Positions 3,826-58,013 of a stretch of DNA of 64,000 nucleotides are shown one piece after another; the first letter of the stretch is position 1; each line of letters begins with the position of its first letter. Location of the stretch: positions 558,001-622,000 of the forward strand of contig JBBPFI010000013.1 of NCBI GenBank assembly GCA_037974965.1. Reading direction: 5' to 3'. Source of the stretch: Dacryopinax spathularia (Eukaryota; Basidiomycota; Dacrymycetes; Dacrymycetales; Dacrymycetaceae). The notes beneath the pieces are model-generated. The model saw only the letters and a list, made by a program, of their open reading frames with translations. It ran no database searches and had not been told where the DNA came from. The translations under genes were made by a program, and so were the position numbers.

Positions 3826-3916
3826 TGCCCCCAAGCCGATTTGAACGACTGACCTCGACATAACAGGCTGATTAGCTAGTTACTAGTGTCGCGCTCTACC
3901 GCTGAGCTATAGGGGC
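3826..3916 (-). tRNA. tRNA-Thr (anticodon AGT) with a 19-nt intron
   Basis: On the minus strand the molecule folds as a full cloverleaf. The acceptor stem pairs GCCCCTA with TGGGGGC and is followed by discriminator A. The D arm is GCTC...GAGC, the anticodon stem CGACA/TGTCG, and the T arm AGTCG-TTCAAAT-CGGCT. The loop reads CT-AGT-A, giving anticodon AGT (read as IGU, Thr ACN). An intron at 3862-3880 begins one base 3' of the anticodon, the canonical position for eukaryotic tRNA splicing endonuclease. The mature length is 72 before CCA. Confidence 0.93.
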
Positions 3917-12399: not shown

Positions 12400-14100
12400 A
12401 AACTGTTCTGAGTTTGCGTAGTGACGAGCCAGTGCACGTCACCATCGTCAGCGGCGCCACGACTTCTGTTGCGGGTGGTAACAGATTGTGCGATAAGCAG
12501 AGGTCGGAGAGCACTTCCGAAATTCATCAAATCAAGGATTCACGTCGCGATGAGATTCGAACTTTCCAAGGAAGAGATGCCGATGATCCCTTACGAAACT
12601 CGGCTCGGCCGATCGGAGTCAAAAGTCTCACCTTTGTTGATACTATGTCTTTGCTTGTCGCGCATCCTTGAGAGTAAGCATTCACAATGCGGTCTTAGGG
12701 AGAGAGAATGGATGTCAAATGGCTTTCAAGCTGCCCTTGGTACGAGCCTATAGCAAGGGAAGCCAACAGCGGCCGGAGCCTCTAGCGTCTTGACAGAGGC
12801 TGTACCCTGACCTTCCCTCGGCCGCAGGCGGACACCACGAAAAGAAGTACGGTCGCCAGAGGTTGCGAGAAGAAATAGGGTCTACCTTCTGCGGGGAACT
12901 ACTCGTCACCACGAAACCATGTCTTCTTTGATGGGCCAGCCACCTCCATTCAATAGTCTAAGCTGACAATGGCCATGGATTTTTCGCTGGTCCGTGCACA
13001 GGCGCGCTGAGCAGAGCGAGTACTGGCGCAAACCATGGCCCGTGCGCTTCCCCCTGGGGTTTAAAAACGCCTCAATCTCGCTCGTCGTGTTCTCCCAGTT
13101 CCCCGCGCTTCGGCACGGGAAGGGGGCCCTCCCCACAAAAGTAGGACGGCAGTTGGTGCGTTCTGTCTTCCTGATTCTCCTCGAGCCTTCACTGATATAC
13201 TGCTTCCTTCAGGTTATGCAGGCGCCAAAGCGCTCACCACCGTGGGGCGCGCGGCTGCCAGCCCCCTGGCCCGCCATTAAAGGCACGTCTCCTCCGCTCC
13301 TTCTCTGTTCTACTCGCGCTGACATTGGTTCTCTTTAGGTCCTCTGGGGCGCTACCCCAGAGGCCGCCCTAGCCACCCTGGGGGGCGGGTTGGCGGGGGG
13401 GACGCCAAAGAGCGGACCCCCAGGGCCAGGGGGGACACAAGGGGGCCAAAGGCCCCCGTCCCCCTGCCTCTGATACCGCAACCCCTGCGCGGGGAACAAG
13501 CAAGTCCTTTCCTTTCCTTCGTCTCAAGCAATCACTGATCATCTCTTTAGGTTACTGATGTTTTTTGTACAGCGCGGCCTCGGCATTCCAGCATCCTCAA
13601 GGTGTCCCCTGGAGAAGGCTTCAAGAACATGGATGGATGCTCCCCACGTCTGGGGAGCACTTGGTATGGTTTCTCCCTCCAGAACAGCGCGCTGACGATT
13701 TTTCCAGGTCGCTCCTGCCGTTCACATTGGTCCATCTCAGCGTCATCGGTCTACCACAGGTGTTCTTGTTGCTCATTTGAACACGACGCTGACGATTTCC
13801 CAGGTCGCTCCAGCCGCGCGTTCGTCTGTCCATCCTCGTCTGCTGGCTCGTGGTTTTCGCCGTCCGTCGTTCTCGTCCGCGTTGCGTTCTTGTCCCTTGT
13901 CCCGTTGTCTTTTGCTCGATGCTCTTGTCGACGCCTACGGACCGCACACTGGGAACGGTGCGCCATTCTTGGCGTAACCATCCAGCGCGTCTCCAAGAAC
14001 AACCCAACCAGTGTCGCGGGGGATAACAGAAGGAACGGCCCTTGCGGTCTCCTTCATGTCCCCCCCCCACATACAGAAGAGGACCGCTCGCATCTCATCG
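12400..14100 (+). repeat. Dispersed repeat, copy A (unclassified, degenerate)
   Basis: About 1.7 kb matches, in patches, the reverse complement of 33070-34760. Shared blocks include TAGTCTAA...CTGA then TGGATTTTTCG (about 12955-12990), AAGTCTCAC...TGTCTTTGCTTGTCGCG (about 12628-12662), the palindrome at 13341-13363, the hairpin at 13441-13457, and a 3' block with ACATACAG-AGAGGACCGCTCGCA near 14067-14095. Intron-like blocks, each with a CTGAC/CTGAT branch and AG end, occur at corresponding places in both copies (for example ending at 13212, 13338 and 13551). The copies are well diverged, so the family is not recent. I do not recognise its class. It looks like an old spliced transcript unit rather than a live gene. 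Confidence 0.7.
13098..13497. repeat. GC-rich core bounded by 11-bp inverted repeats (copy A)
   Basis: GTTCCCCGCGC at 13098-13108 is answered by its exact reverse complement at 13487-13497. Between them lie a 9-bp-arm palindrome (CCTCTGGGG/CCCCAGAGG, 13341-13363) and a 7-bp-arm hairpin (GGGGGCC-AAA-GGCCCCC, 13441-13457). The same arrangement occurs in copy B with nearly the same spacing (400 against 402 bp). Confidence 0.75.
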
Positions 14101-14432
14101 TTTCGAGTTTCCCACCGTCTATGGCACTCATTGGTTCGCTTGGGCTGCTGTGGAAAGGTGGCGTTGCTTCTCGGTCCCTCTGTGCCTTACCCGTCGTTTC
14201 ATAGGTCACCGCGAGAGTCGTAATGCAACAATACAGTTCAACCATATATCGCCGATGGCCGCATCGGCTCGCGTGCGAAACTGAACATCTTACGTCTCGT
14301 ACGCAAGCGAGCGTGAAAGGGCCTTCGACGCATCGCATCTTTGGCTCTAACCCGTCGTTCGTTCAGATGCACGGATCGCTCGCAAAGAAAGTGCAAAGTG
14401 GCGCGTCCCCATCCCATTATCCCATTAATAAC
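14101..14432. other. Gap between repeat copy A and MTO1
   Basis: No gene found. This is the 3' flank of MTO1, which reads leftwards and ends at 14433. Confidence 0.4.
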
Positions 14433-20705: not shown

Positions 20706-21921
20706 CTACAGCTTGGCAATCTGTTCCTCGCACCACTGCCAAAGTCTCGCTCCCAACTTCGGATCCTGCGTATCCGGCCTCGGCTTCCCCACTCTGGCCC
20801 AAGGAACAAGATACGCCCCGTTCATCTGTGCCGCTTCAGGCATAGTACCCGCATACAGCATCTGGTACCCTCCATACGGCTCCAAGTCATACAAGAGGAT
20901 CGCGTTCTTCCCCAGTCCGGTGAGCGCCTCGTTGGAGATACGAAAGAGGGACGCGCTTACGAGTAAAAAGTATCCCAGCTTGGGCATGTTCTTATGCAGG
21001 TCTGTGCGGATGTTCCCGGGGTCAAACGAAATGGAGACGATGCCCTGATTGCCATATCTCCTCGCAAGCTCGTTCGAATATGTCGCGTTACCCTGTCATA
21101 CCCCGTCTCAGCTGGCGCCGAACACGAAGGGGGGAAAGGCAAGCGTACCCATTTCGACTGATAGTACATCTGCCATGTGCCGGCTTTTGTACGTGCTGGG
21201 CCTGGGGTGAGGGTCTTGATGTCCATTCCTCCTTCGAATGCGTGCATGTGCCCCCTATCACACAGGTCAACGACGGTCACCCAAATCGAGCAAGCAACGT
21301 ACGCAGAGCTCGTGTTCACCACCCGAACGACTCCTGGCGCCGATTCGGCGGTGGAGAGGAGGGTCGGCAGGAGAAGCTTCGTCAGATACGCATGACCGAG
21401 CACGGATACCCCAAACTGCAGATCATAGCCCTGCTTCGTCAATTGCTCGATGGGCGGAGTCATCACACCCCTGCGCATCCACATCAACCAACGTAACAAC
21501 TTGTCGACGCAAAGAACATACCCATTGTTGAAGAGCATATGGAGCTGGCTCTCCTTACTCCAGAACTCCTCCGCCGCCCTCCTCACGCTATACAAGTCCG
21601 CCAAGTCCAGCGGAAGGAAGAAGAGCTCTTTCCTCCCCGTCTCCCGTTTCAGCCTGTCAATGACTGGCAAAGCGCGTGCTTGGGAGCGCGAGGCCATGTA
21701 CACTCTTGCGCCTTTGGAAAGGAGGATCTTGCATGCTAGCATCCCTATCCCGGAGTTGCCGCCCTACAGGGGGGAGTGTCAGAATGTGGGATAGGGCGAG
21801 CGCCGAGGAGGGGTAGCGGAGGACGTACGGTGATGATGGCTATCTTGCCTGTTTGGTCCGGGATGTCATTGAAGCTAAACTTGCTCTTCGGTGGGAAAAT
21901 GAAAGAGAGCAGGTTACCCAT
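20706..21921 (-). CDS. Short-chain dehydrogenase/reductase (RDH/WWOX-like), copy 1
   Basis: NAD(P)-dependent oxidoreductase of the classical-to-extended RDH11/13-like group; substrate unknown. Exons 21921-21829, 21763-21522, 21470-21303, 21254-21149 and 21092-20706 give 331 residues. The cofactor motif is split by intron 1 and reads T-GGNSGIG. Then come RSQARA, LDLADLYSV, FNNGGVM, NTSSA and the catalytic YYQSK. The C terminus WARVGKPRPDTQDPKLGARL closely matches the paralogue at 53682-54783. The first three intron positions and the lengths of exons 2 and 3 (242 and 168) are identical in the two genes. It converges on LTO1 and has a TATA box about 50 bp upstream. Confidence 0.85.
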
Positions 21922-32882: not shown

Positions 32883-33069
32883 GAGTCCATGCATGAGAGA
32901 GAGAGCGTCTGCTCAAAGGACATTGTGGACGAAAGGGCTTCTCTTCCATCGTCATCCAGGCGTTGTTTTGCTTCATAATCTCATCTCCTATATCACGCAC
33001 ACAAGTTGGGACCAGTCATCATTCAAACGATGGGTGTATGTAAATGATGAATGAATCAAGCTGCTACTG

Positions 33070-34760
33070 TGAGTTGCGATACTACCAACTGCGAGCGGTC
33101 CTCTCCTGTATGTGAGTGGGGACGAGAAGGAGACCGTAGCCCGCGTTCCTTCGGTTGTCCCCAGGAACACGAGCTTGATCGAGAGCACAGTTTGACCGGT
33201 TGCGCCAAGTATGGCGTACCTTGCCATGGCGTACGTCATCCGCGGAATCGGTAACAGAGAAAAAGGGAGAGAGATGAGAAGGAAAGACCGCCTATGCGAA
33301 GGCGACGACAAGTAGTGATAGGCAACAAAATGGGGACTGTTCCAGCAACCTGAACAAGCGATTAGCGTTGTAGTATATCAGACAACGAAGACATGACTTA
33401 GCTGGTCAAACGAGAAGGTCGCTGTCCATTCAAAGCCATTGGTCTGAACGATCTGGAGAAGCAGTATCAGCAGTGTGTTCCGAACAAGTCGACATACACT
33501 TTGCTCCTCAGACGTGAGGAGCGCTCCATCCATCGGTCCAGGTCTTGATGTCTTCTCCAGGGGATGCCTGAAGTGCTGAGGCCGCACTGTCAAAAACCAT
33601 CAGTAACCTGAGCAAGTGTCAGTATCTGTAGAAGACGAAGAAGTGAAGAAGACTTGCTGGTTCCCCGCGCAGGGGTGGCGGCATCGGATGCGGCGGGACG
33701 GGGGCCATTGGCCCCCTTGTGTCCTCGCCCGGTCCTTGGGTGTCTGCCAGGTGGGCATCCACCCTGCGGACCCTGCCCCCAGGGGCAAATGGCAGCCTCT
33801 GGGGTAGCGCCCCAGAGGCTCTGCAGAAGTATATCAGTGCCGGCTCGCAGAAGGAAAAGGAAAGGGAGAGGCACCTTTAACCGCGGGCCGGGCCGCTTGC
33901 AGCTGCTCGCCCAACCGTAGTCGGGGTCCTATTGCCGCCGCCTTGATCTGCAGAATGTTCAGTCAGCGCGAAGCGAGAGAAGAGCAAGTCTAAAAGGGTA
34001 CTCACATACCGCCATCCTACTTGCGCTAGGAGGGCCCCCTTCCCGCTACAGCGCGGGGAACTTGGAGTACGACCAGGGCATTTGGGCGCGCTTTTAAGCC
34101 TCTTGGAGGAGCGCACGGGCCATTCCCTGGCCCGGCAGGAGTAACGCCAGAACACGGACCAACGAAAAATCCACGTCGCCTCAGTTTAGACTACTGAATA
34201 GGGGTGGCTGGTCCATCAGAGAAGGACGCGGTTTCGTGGCGACCCGTGCTTCGCTGCCAGGAGAAGACCCTTGGTCTTCCTACAACCTCTCGCGACTGTA
34301 CTTCTCTTCGCGGTGTGTGGCATGGCCGAGAGAGGGCTAAGGGTGCACCGCGATCATTCCCAACAGTTGTCGAGGAGCGGCCAGTACGAAAGAAACTGTT
34401 AAGATGACGGGGTACATCAAAGAGTCGTGAAGGTGCCATTTCATTTGCCACTGATCCTTCATGATGATCGGTCAAGGTGAGACGCGACAAGCAAAGACAA
34501 TGCGCAACATATGTGAGACTTTGGCTCCGTTCGGCGAGGGAGACAGGGTTTATCGGGACTTCCTTTTGGAAACATCGAAAGTTGTGACGATCCCGCTCTT
34601 TGGACGACATAATCTCGCTTCTCGGGAGTGCTGTTCGAGGGGCTTATCGTCGCCTTGGCCGTGGTCTACCAAGCTCCCCGAGCGCAACATGGAAGCATGG
34701 ACTTCTATCGTCAGGTCGCCAGAAGAAGAACTTGAGGGCGCGCCGGGCACAGTAGGTGAA
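33070..34760 (-). repeat. Dispersed repeat, copy B (unclassified, degenerate)
   Basis: Read on the minus strand this aligns in order with copy A at 12400-14100, including the palindrome (33796-33818), the hairpin (33700-33716), the paired 11-bp inverted repeats (33660-33670 and 34051-34061), several intron-like blocks, and the end block with ACATACAGGAGAGGACCGC. Between the blocks the copies have drifted, including in the lengths of the intron-like parts. No terminal repeats or flanking target-site duplication could be fixed by eye. It sits 3' of the decarboxylase gene and 3' of the DnaJ gene, so it does not disrupt either. Confidence 0.7.
33660..34061. repeat. GC-rich core bounded by 11-bp inverted repeats (copy B)
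   Basis: GTTCCCCGCGC at 33660-33670 pairs with GCGCGGGGAAC at 34051-34061. Inside are a 9-bp-arm palindrome and the GGGGGCC/GGCCCCC hairpin, matching the core of copy A in reverse. Confidence 0.75.
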
Positions 34761-34962: not shown

Positions 34963-36642
34963 TCACTGCCTCGCCTGATCCCTCTCCTTACTAGCCTTCG
35001 TATCCACCCTCACATACTCGCTCTCCGCCGCCTGCTCATCCTCGTCCTTCTTCACACTCTGATACGCCTCTCCCAGTATCCCCAGCCCAATAGCCCTCAA
35101 CTGGCGTTTCTCGCGTGAGACATCAGGTGCAGAAAGGACGCGGTCACATGTTTCGCGTAGGACGGACTGGATTTCTAGTCGGGCGCCTTTGAACAGCGCT
35201 TGGAGAGCCTTTTCGGCCGCTTGTTCTTCTAGCTTCTTCTTTTCTGCTTCGGCCAGACCTTTTTTCTCACTTTGTTCGATCTGCTCGAAGATATTCTTGA
35301 GCTCCATCGCAGCTCGGACGGTCGAGACACTATTAGTGAGTGGGCACGTCAGCATAGGTTGGGCGTGGTGGATGTGATGAACGTACGTTTCGCTGAAGAA
35401 GTTGACGTTGCCCTTCACGCCGTGGAACCATCCGCCGACGCCGAATGGCGTAGCGTTCGAGGCGAGGTACTGTCTGCTCTTGGCAACGTAGACGTAGCCA
35501 ATAGCGTGTAACAGCTCGACACCGTACGACTCTGTCTTCAGATTCCTAAATATATGCGCTTGAGCAGACTCGCAACCATGCGTAGAAATGACGACTCACT
35601 CCGCCTCGAGCATACACTGCGCCCTCCATCCCTCCAAAGCAGTCCGATCTGTCTCGCTCGTCGCGTTCTCCGTAAACACAGCTAACTTCCTCTCCAAGTT
35701 CTCAACAAGCTTCGCCACCCTCTCCTCCCGTTCCTTCTTCCTCTCCAGCGCAAGCTTCCGGTCCTTCTCCTCCTTCTCCGCCTTCCTCTGCCGCTCAATC
35801 TCCTTCTGCTCTCGCTCGCCTTCCTTCCCTTCTAGCCTCTTTGGTCCACCGTCGCCTTCCCCAGCTCCGGCAGGATCGCCCGTCTTGACACGCTCGGCTT
35901 TGGCGTTCTCCTCCTCGGCCTCGACGAGCGCGTCTTTCATATCGCGGCCGATACTGATGTTCCCCACTAGGGGGACGAACTTCTCACCGCCGAAGAGCTT
36001 GCTGAACACTTCTTCAGGGTCGACGAACCCTCCCTCCGGGCTGGCAGTCTGCGATGGTCCGAACTCGTTATACTTGTGCCTCAGTTGCGGGTCCGACAGG
36101 ATCTGATACGCCTCCGAGATCTTCTTGAACTATATAACAGAAGCCAGGTATCAGCAAGTGTGGAGGAAGAGGAGGGAGGAGAGGGGACGCACGATCTCAG
36201 CAGCAGAATCATCGTTCGGGTTCTTATCCGGATGATGCTTGATCGCGAGCCTCCTATAAGCCTTCTTGATCTCCTCCTCGCTCGCATCCACCTTCACGCC
36301 CAGAATATCATAGTACTCTGTATCCAGCGGCTCCTTATCCGTGCCTATCCTCCTTTGCCTCCTCGGTCGCTCAGGCATCGGCGGTACGCCTGACTGCTGC
36401 CCACTTGCGCTTGAGCCGCCTGGCGCGTTTGGAGTCGGGGTTTGGGAGCGGGATTTACTGGAGCTGGCGGAGGAGGGGTTGTGCACGATTATGGTGGCGC
36501 ATTGGCAGCATTGGACTCTGAGGGGAGTGGATGGGAGGGGGTTTGGAGGTGTGTACTCGAGCTCGGCTTTACATTCTGGGCATTTAAGGGTTGTCCATGG
36601 TGTACGGAGACGTGTTGGGATCGGTGGTGGAAGGGAAGTCAT
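34963..36642 (-). CDS. Class C J-protein of the Caj1/Djp1 type
   Basis: Hsp70 co-chaperone; the yeast relatives act at peroxisomes, ER and plasma membrane. Exons 36642-36193, 36129-35600, 35545-35387 and 35329-34963 give 501 residues. Residues 18-55 carry two CxxC-like pairs (C21/C24 and C45-C48), a zinc-ribbon-like element. The J domain starts near 107 ([10 protein letters not shown]) with HPD at 137-139. A charged coiled-coil ([15 protein letters not shown]...) follows, and then the DnaJ-X region. Sequences such as [16 protein letters not shown] and NVNFFSET are typical of Caj1/Djp1. The gene is divergent from RAB18. Confidence 0.9.
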
Positions 36643-53681: not shown

Positions 53682-54783
53682 ATGAGTATGCGCCAGGCCC
53701 TTTCCGAGATGTGTCCACCGAAGCCGAAGTGGACCGTCGATGATATGCCGAATCTGACTGGCAAAGTCGTCATTGTCACCGTGCGTACATATTGAGTTCC
53801 TGTCTCATCATCCACCAACACCTAGGACAGGGCGGTAACACCGGCATCGGCTTCGTGACATGCAAATACCTGCTGCTGAAAGGCGCCACCGTCTACATGC
53901 TCTGCCGCAATCCTGCCAGAGCGCAGGAAGCGATCCAGAAGCTCAAGGAAGTTACCGGTGGGAAGGAAGCACGGTTCGTTCAGTGCGACCTTGCCGACCT
54001 TGTGAGCGTCAAGAAGTGCGTCGAGGAGTTCACAACTAAGGAGAGGAGACTGCACATACTGTTCAATTCTGCGTGAATACCCTTGACTCTGAAGCGTCAA
54101 GCAACATCTGACCGAAGACATGCAGCGGTGTCATGTTCCCGCCTATTGAGCAAGTCACAAAGCAGAATTATGACATGCAATTTGGCACGAATGTCATCGG
54201 GCACTGCTACCTCACCATCCTGCTTCTTCCCACCCTTCTTGCTACCGCACAAGCGACAGGCCAGAAAGTTCGGGTAGTTAACACCAGCTCTGAGTACGTT
54301 GCGCATGGCTCACGATATGCAACCGTACTTACAAGCCTTCGCAGCGGCCACTATCTTTTCACCCCCAAAGAAGGCATCAACTACAACGTCCTGGCCGACT
54401 CTCAGGAGCGTCGCAAGATGTCTACAACCACGATGTACGGAATGTCTAAGTGGGGCAACGTCGTGTTTGCGAAAGAACTTGCTCGGCGATACGGCTCTCA
54501 AGGCATCATCGCCCATGCCCTCAACCCAGGGCATCTGAAGACCGAACTACAGCGCCACGGCAGCGGCCTGAGTCAGAAAGTCGCCGGCTTGCTACTGTAC
54601 GACCCGGATCCGCTGGGCGCGCTCACCCAGCTGTACGCGGGTACGAGCGAGGAAGCTGGCCGGGTAAATGGGCAGTATTATATCCCGTGGGCTAGGTTAG
54701 GGCACGCGAGACCGGATACGGATGACCCGGAGGCTGGGAGGAAGCTCTGGCAATGGCTGGAGAGCGAGTTCAAGAAATACTAG
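53682..54783 (+). CDS. Short-chain dehydrogenase/reductase (RDH/WWOX-like), copy 2
   Basis: Exons 53682-53780, 53831-54072, 54126-54293 and 54345-54783 give 315 residues. Motifs: T-GGNTGIG cofactor loop, CRNPARA, CDLADLVSV, FNSAGVM, NTSSD and catalytic YGMSK, then LNPGHLKT. The C terminus WARLGHARPDTDDPEAGRKL parallels the paralogue at 20706-21921. Exons 2 and 3 have the same lengths in both genes, so they are duplicates that kept three introns. The other copy has one further intron after its YxxxK. Substrate unknown. Confidence 0.87.
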
Positions 54784-57311: not shown

Positions 57312-58013
57312 TCAGTAATTGTTGTTGCTACCCATTCCAGAGTCACCGCCCATGCCACCATCACCTCCACTCATGCCGCCGCCGTCGCCACCCATCCCAC
57401 CCCCCATTCCGCCGTCACCTGCCATGCCGCCATCACCCCCCATGCCACCGCCCATACCTGTACCTCCCATGCCGCCACCCATGCCGCCACCGCTCATCCC
57501 TGTGCCACCCATCCCTCCATCACCGCCCATTCCACCTCCCATGCCGCCACCGCCCATTCCGGTACCCCCCATGCCGCCGTCTCCACCCATGCCACCGCTC
57601 ATGCCAGTGCCGCCCATACCTCCGTCTCCGCCCATACCACCTCCCATGCCAGAGTCGCCCCCCATGCCGCCTTGACCCATACCACCCATACCGCCGCCGC
57701 CTCCCATCCCTCCCTGGCCCATACCGCCTCCCATTCCACCTTGGCCCATGCCAGAGTCACCGCCCATACCGCCTTGGCCCATTCCTGAAGAACAGCATCA
57801 TTATGCGAGGACGTCATTTGCGTCAATTAGCTTACCTCCGCCCATGCCCGACTGGCCGCCGAAGCCGGAATCCCCGCCCATGCCGGACTGGTTTCCGCCA
57901 TATCCTGAGTTGCCGCCCATACCCGAGTCGCCGCCCATGCCAGAGTTGCCTCCCATTCCGCCGCCGGTTGCCTGTTGGAGCTTCTGCTTCGCTTTGTCGA
58001 TCAAGCCGGCCAT
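57312..58013 (-). CDS. Gly/Met tandem-repeat protein
   Basis: Exons 58013-57836 and 57784-57312 give 216 residues. A short helical head (MAGLIDKAKQKLQQATGG) is followed almost wholly by repeats of GMGG with inserts GDSGMGG, GDGGMGG, GTGMSGG and GQGGMGG. Near the N terminus the units carry N, S, Y and F (GGNSGYGGNQSG). It ends SGMGSNNNY. At DNA level this is a minisatellite, so copy number probably varies between strains. No signal peptide. Function unknown; similar low-complexity proteins can phase-separate or respond to stress (inference). Confidence 0.72.

Follow-up and report, generated by a model that had tools for sequence, protein, structure and literature searches.

Two loci in the window analysed here, a stretch of 64,000 nucleotides (bases 558001-622000 of contig C13, in a genome of 29.2 Mb and 24 contigs), are probably paralogous genes, born of an ancient local duplication, for a long noncoding RNA of about 1.3 kb that is spliced and structured. 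The two, which we designated copy A and copy B, lie about 20,000 bases apart in opposite orientation, and their layout and the constraint acting on them are evident from their alignment (Table 1). The core of this alignment pairs positions 12801-13659 (+) with 34347-33502 (-) at 70.2% identity over 886 columns (E about 1e-88), and two outer blocks are collinear with it: 12608-12662 with 34535-34483 at 82% identity, and 14011-14092 with 33170-33090 at 79%. The long patches of A that a preliminary description had matched to the reverse complement of 33070-34760 are thus borne out. When five putative introns are removed, A is 1301 nt long and B is 1282 nt. A further intron is possible between the first two exons of A, e0 and e1.

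Table 1. Features of copies A and B in window coordinates
Feature	Position	Strand	Remarks
Copy A, proposed gene for a multi-exon noncoding RNA	12548-14100	+	limits set by hand from homology
A e0, 5' conserved block	12556-12670	+	67% identical to B
A e1	12790-13155	+	71% identical to B
A i1, putative intron	13156-13212	+	57 nt; GTGCGT..CTGAT..CAG
A e2	13213-13282	+	69% identical to B
A i2, putative intron	13283-13338	+	56 nt; GCACGT..CTGAC..TAG; GC-AG type (GT in B)
A e3, strongly structured (predicted)	13339-13499	+	75% identical to B
A e3 predicted hairpins	13341-13363, 13433-13461, 13482-13494	+
A i3, putative intron	13500-13550	+	51 nt; GCAAGT..CTGAT..TAG
A e4, with predicted hairpin	13551-13663	+	83% identical to B
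A i4, putative intron	13664-13707	+	44 nt; GTATGG..CTGAC..CAG
A e5, barely conserved	13708-13759	+	48% identical to B
A i5, putative intron	13760-13803	+	44 nt; GTGTTC..CTGAC..CAG
A e6	13804-14100	+	62% identical to B; 3' part 13949-14100 with two conserved predicted hairpins
Copy B, paralogue of A	33075-34608	-	limits set by hand
B i1, putative intron	33948-34005	-	58 nt; GTGAGT..CTGAC..CAG
B i2, putative intron	33821-33874	-	54 nt; GTGCCT..CTGAT..CAG
B e3, structured exon (predicted)	33658-33820	-
B i3, putative intron	33608-33657	-	50 nt; GCAAGT..CTGAC..CAG
B e4	33498-33607	-
B i4, putative intron	33453-33497	-	45 nt; GTATGT..CTGAT..CAG
B block aligned with i5	33350-33394	-	45 nt; AG end, CTAAT, AT at the aligned donor (no GT)
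B 3' structured block of e6 (predicted)	33080-33228	-

Each copy contains five intron-like blocks of 44-58 nt, which stand at matching positions of the alignment and agree in length to within 2 nt. With block limits picked by eye and branch motifs likewise read by eye from the sequence, AG ends all ten blocks (five in each copy), and CTGAC or CTGAT stands close upstream of the acceptor in nine, the exception being the i5 block of B. GT donors are common to A and B at i1 and i4, and weak or GC-type donors occur at i2, i3 and i5. The i3 donor, GCAAGT in both copies, would make a GC-AG intron; the alternative is a GT donor from its fifth base. As far as sequence signals go, four pairs of blocks are clear candidates for spliceosomal introns at kept positions, and the fifth is weak in B. 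The matching series of intron-like blocks reported earlier is confirmed to that extent; of the grammar proposed for them, the AG end held throughout and the CTGAC or CTGAT branch in nine of ten, but not a uniform GT start, from which i2 of A, i3 and i5 of B depart. The strict GT/branch/AG pattern recovers only i1 and i4, and these on the sense strand only (two matches in A and four in B, three of the latter nested on i1, with none on the antisense of either copy). This pattern is a loose one, occurring 36 and 38 times on the two strands of the window against 20.3 (sd 4.2) in doublet-matched random sequence. A similar putative intron, again read by eye, starts at 35386 in the DnaJ-X gene of the window (GTACGT..GCTGAC..TAG). 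Short introns of this CTGAC type, together with the gene content, suggest a basidiomycete genome. Within A, the branch site, acceptor and next-exon start of i4 (13682-13720) recur at i5 (13779-13816), about 85-90% alike and 96-97 nt apart; because of this repetition, exon e5 and intron i5 of A may have arisen by tandem duplication.

The exons and introns differ in how well they have been kept. Exons e1-e4 are 69-83% identical between the copies; pooled, they agree at 503 of 683 sites (74%), compared with 139 of 248 in the introns (56%), a difference with a naive Fisher P of 6e-7 that treats sites as independent, which they are not, and that excludes e0, e5 and e6 from the exon pool. When all exons are taken, including these three, 763 of 1107 sites are identical (69%, a simple sum), and the contrast with the introns is smaller. 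The introns, at 51-64% identity, lie slightly above shuffled controls (40-46%). That the exons of both copies have stayed alike while the introns are near saturation argues for a kept function. The earlier characterization of both copies as heavily diverged suits the introns and exon e5, but not the hairpins.

Consensus folding of the A-B alignment, compared with 200 column-shuffled alignments (100 for antisense), predicted excess structure on the sense strand of e3 (z -5.1), of the 3' block of e6 (-6.0) and, more weakly, of e4 (-2.6). No excess was seen in the two halves of e1 (-0.6 and -0.9), e2 (-1.0), e5 (+0.6) or the first part of e6 (+1.0), and the three introns within the test, i1, i2 and i3, gave +0.6, -0.7 and -0.3. 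On the antisense strand, the values were -3.4 for e3, -3.2 for e4 and -2.2 for the 3' block. For whole e3 (-5.1 versus -3.4) and the 3' block (-6.0 versus -2.2), the orientation that the splice sites indicate is thus the better-scoring one; the opposite holds for the first half of e3 (antisense -4.7 versus sense -3.7) and for e4 (-3.2 versus -2.6). The antisense of intron i2 (13283-13338) also has a surprisingly good consensus fold (z -5.1), one among 26 strand tests. Folding energies of the single sequences are unusual in sense for e3 alone (z -3.3 and -4.0; antisense -3.0 and -2.7), and in e6 they are more unusual in antisense (-2.4 and -2.2) than in sense (-1.0 and -1.1). The strong antisense values and the lack of excess in e1, e2 and e5 count against the noncoding RNA reading, as do the weak or GC-type donors.

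The predicted hairpins include a 9-bp stem identical in A and B (CCTCTGGGG-CGCTA-CCCCAGAGG), a 7-bp stem GGGGGCC/GGCCCCC with an outer stem GGAC/GTCC, and CCCC-TGCGC-GGGG. The e4 hairpin reads GCTCCCCA-CGTC-TGGGGAGC in A and GCTCCTCA-CGTC-TGAGGAGC in B, with one pair changed on both sides. Palindromes had been noticed in the non-intron blocks at the outset; they are recovered here as exon hairpins, and no further genomic copies of two long ones were found at up to three mismatches. For e3 and the 3' block, which are the best two domains, 146 of the 146 consensus-pair cells can pair, as against 35-61% when the structure is slid, and five of 73 pairs have both partners changed with none broken, all counted on a structure derived from the very alignment under test. 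Shuffles of the partner letters match the observed covariation in 53 of 500 and 143 of 500 trials for these domains. The covariation is thin because only two sequences are compared, and by itself it is not decisive. Taken together, the models predict a conserved fold beyond composition and conservation, strongly for e3 and the 3' block and weakly for e4.

It is unlikely that A and B are instead protein-coding paralogues, or pseudogenes derived from a protein gene, although several observations point that way: A and B have stop-free frames (the longest in each, of 252 and 171 codons respectively) over the same exons, e1-e4, a local protein alignment across the joined exons scores 169, an ATG open reading frame of 188 aa lies in the frame of A, and some rows of a coding test are weakly positive. 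The open-frame lengths are, however, within chance, being equalled by randomised sequences in 10% (A) and 14% (B) of trials, and the ATG open reading frame of B in that frame has only 66 aa and starts in e3. The substitution test, which comprised 54 rows over parts of five exons (leaving out e0, e5 and the first part of e6) in six frames, with one or two longest gapless blocks each, gave no consistent coding signal in the A-B alignment, the highest z among the 54 rows being 2.53. Rows that lean alike in both blocks are e3 antisense (z 2.5 and 2.5), e1 sense (1.9 and 1.9) and e6 antisense (2.0 and 1.8); these disagree on strand, and the e3 blocks are separated by a 2-nt indel. Two short-chain dehydrogenase (SDR) paralogues, used as a positive control, have diverged further than A and B, to 59-66% identity, yet they show a consistent frame, with the top z in a forward frame in five of five blocks (5.5, 2.4, 3.7, 4.3 and 4.5). 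The indels between A and B measure 1, 1, 1, 2, 2, 2 and 9 nt in e1, 2 nt in e3, and 1, 1, 7 and 10 nt in e4; these indels speak against a protein, as does the excess of structure in the alignment. Mismatches in e3 fall unevenly on the codon phases (21, 11 and 9), which counts against the noncoding reading; in e1 and e6, both larger exons, the imbalance is smaller. The 1.3-kb RNA probably codes for no protein.

The preliminary description had regarded the two copies as members of a dispersed repeat, a family that spread as DNA of a multi-intron unit and not as processed copies. DNA searches of the whole genome with 12900-13600 (to E 0.001) and with 33050-34700, 13340-13530, 12556-13155 and 13551-14200 (to E 10) returned A and B only, and two hairpin patterns, with up to three mismatches allowed, gave a single hit in each copy and none elsewhere. 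Since only two copies were found in 29.2 Mb, counts that are lower bounds, the dispersed repeat was rejected; copying at the DNA level, introns included, survives from that account, but the spread family does not. Of the two findings that were jointly to overturn that description, a copy number of only two was obtained, but no ordinary gene family to which the copies align was found. Searches with two hairpin patterns in viral contigs, and with one pattern in genome contigs, gave no matches, which says little because these collections are viral and prokaryotic.

Copy A precedes the 3' end of a MnmG/GidA-type gene on the opposite strand; copy B lies downstream of the DnaJ-X gene, on the same strand, and faces a cupin gene. 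The neighbours of A and B belong to different families, and no similarity between the flanks was found within the window, so the RNA unit alone, with its introns, seems to have been copied at the DNA level. The SDR paralogues (20709-21763 (-) and 53744-54780 (+)) likewise point in opposite directions, with about 32 kb between them. Positions 57324-57966 contain imperfect tandem repeats, 15-105 nt per unit, in which CCACCCATGCCGCC-like words abound; they may encode a repetitive part of a protein.

Descent from an ancient mobile element with the build of a spliced gene, of which A and B would be the remains, would also account for two oppositely oriented copies whose flanks are not duplicated, and A has 20-nt, 80% complementary arms at 12548-12567 and 14081-14100. 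We nevertheless consider this origin improbable. Beyond the copy number, the repeat tool listed no matching arms at the ends of B, and no terminal inverted repeats common to A and B were found. A duplex between the two ends, compared with shuffles, reached z -2.6 in A (equalled by 1%) but -0.9 in B, hardly above shuffled (18%); a terminal closing helix or inverted repeats, seen weakly in A, found no support in B. Exons that are kept while introns have drifted are, moreover, the pattern of selection and not of decay.

Similarly doubtful is a host transcript from whose exons several small RNAs, for example H/ACA-like ones, would be processed in place of one long RNA. The 3' block is built as a hairpin, a linker and a longer hairpin followed by ACATACA, an ending that we take to resemble an H/ACA tail, but no Rfam snoRNA matched at cut-off and the conserved parts extend over several exons.

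At the Rfam cut-off, the whole unspliced window yielded only the tRNA at 3826-3916, and the A/B RNA matches no catalogued RNA family by this measure on unspliced DNA. This tRNA gene, on the reverse strand, likely has an anticodon-loop intron; it was caught by the Rfam tRNA model and is absent from the ARAGORN list. Permissive scans gave 13 sub-threshold matches (eight in A, five in B; E 0.5-6.5), none of them common to both copies. The telomere repeat is TTAGGG, contigs C1 and C2 starting with CCCTAA repeats, and telomerase RNA was rejected for A and B on finding no template word of at least 8 nt on their unspliced sense strands, where the longest is one 6-nt word in B. A genome-wide search for RNase P and RNase MRP RNA placed the former on contig C10 (70.6 bits) and a probable gene for the latter on contig C16 at 679209-679965 (35.9 bits against a cut-off of 50, with conserved core parts aligned). 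Both families were rejected for A and B, which fall below the family cut-off on unspliced DNA. The probable RNase MRP match spans 757 nt, compared with 266 positions in the model, and has a long insert. A known RNA hidden by introns, whether telomerase RNA, RNase P, RNase MRP, SRP or a snoRNA, is very unlikely: a length of about 1.3 kb suits a fungal telomerase RNA, and a spliced Rfam match could be missed because the scans used unspliced DNA, but the template is absent, RNase P and probably RNase MRP are encoded elsewhere, and the weak Rfam matches are unshared.

Under the favoured reading, a duplicated pair of noncoding RNA genes, we infer transcription, splicing and function from the sequences as follows. 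An ancestral unit would have been copied locally at the DNA level, introns included. Its primary transcript would most likely be made by RNA polymerase II, because the introns look spliceosomal, and would lose four or five short introns by splicing; once joined, its exons would fold into GC-rich hairpin domains, namely e3, the e4 hairpin and the 3' terminal block. Selection would preserve these domains while introns and linkers drift, and the most likely mode of action would be that of a stable multi-domain RNA serving as the scaffold of a ribonucleoprotein. We regard it as plausible, at somewhat less than an even chance, that the RNA acts in this way through its fold, and not through translation or the act of transcription alone. 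Tentatively, A and B may represent a class of fungal RNA not described before, large, structured and built of several domains, with several spliceosomal introns between the hairpin domains in its gene, present as two diverged paralogues and scaffolding an unknown ribonucleoprotein. Large structured RNAs form a small group, many members of which have central roles. If the proposal is true, fungal RNA biology would gain a new kind of object in an RNA that needs four or five splicings to assemble its fold and whose two paralogues have persisted while their introns neared saturation. It would also suggest that structured RNAs in intron-rich genomes can escape covariance models run on genomic DNA, where introns interrupt the match.

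None of the papers retrieved describes a basidiomycete RNA of this kind in its title or the opening of its abstract. RNase P and RNase MRP RNA resemble A and B in being structured RNAs. Fungal long noncoding RNAs are mostly poorly conserved and unstructured; A and B differ from them in that several exons have been kept as hairpins through an old duplication. The likeness to fungal RNA polymerase II long noncoding RNAs, as these appear in the available part of PMC8113380, lies in an intergenic place and in being apparently spliced and apparently noncoding. Basidiomycete telomerase RNAs, according to the available part of PMC10035886, are also long, structured and intergenic, with candidates of 784 to 2,669 nt; Ustilago ter1, however, is a single-copy gene whose template measures 9 nt (11 nt in other Ustilaginales), whereas A and B are two copies with no template of at least 8 nt. 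The 15 structured RNA motifs of fungi, which the available part of PMC5640933 places mostly in introns, in 5' UTRs or antisense to protein genes, are likewise conserved folded elements detected by comparison; A and B differ from what is described there in that their predicted fold is spread over the exons of a multi-intron gene of its own.
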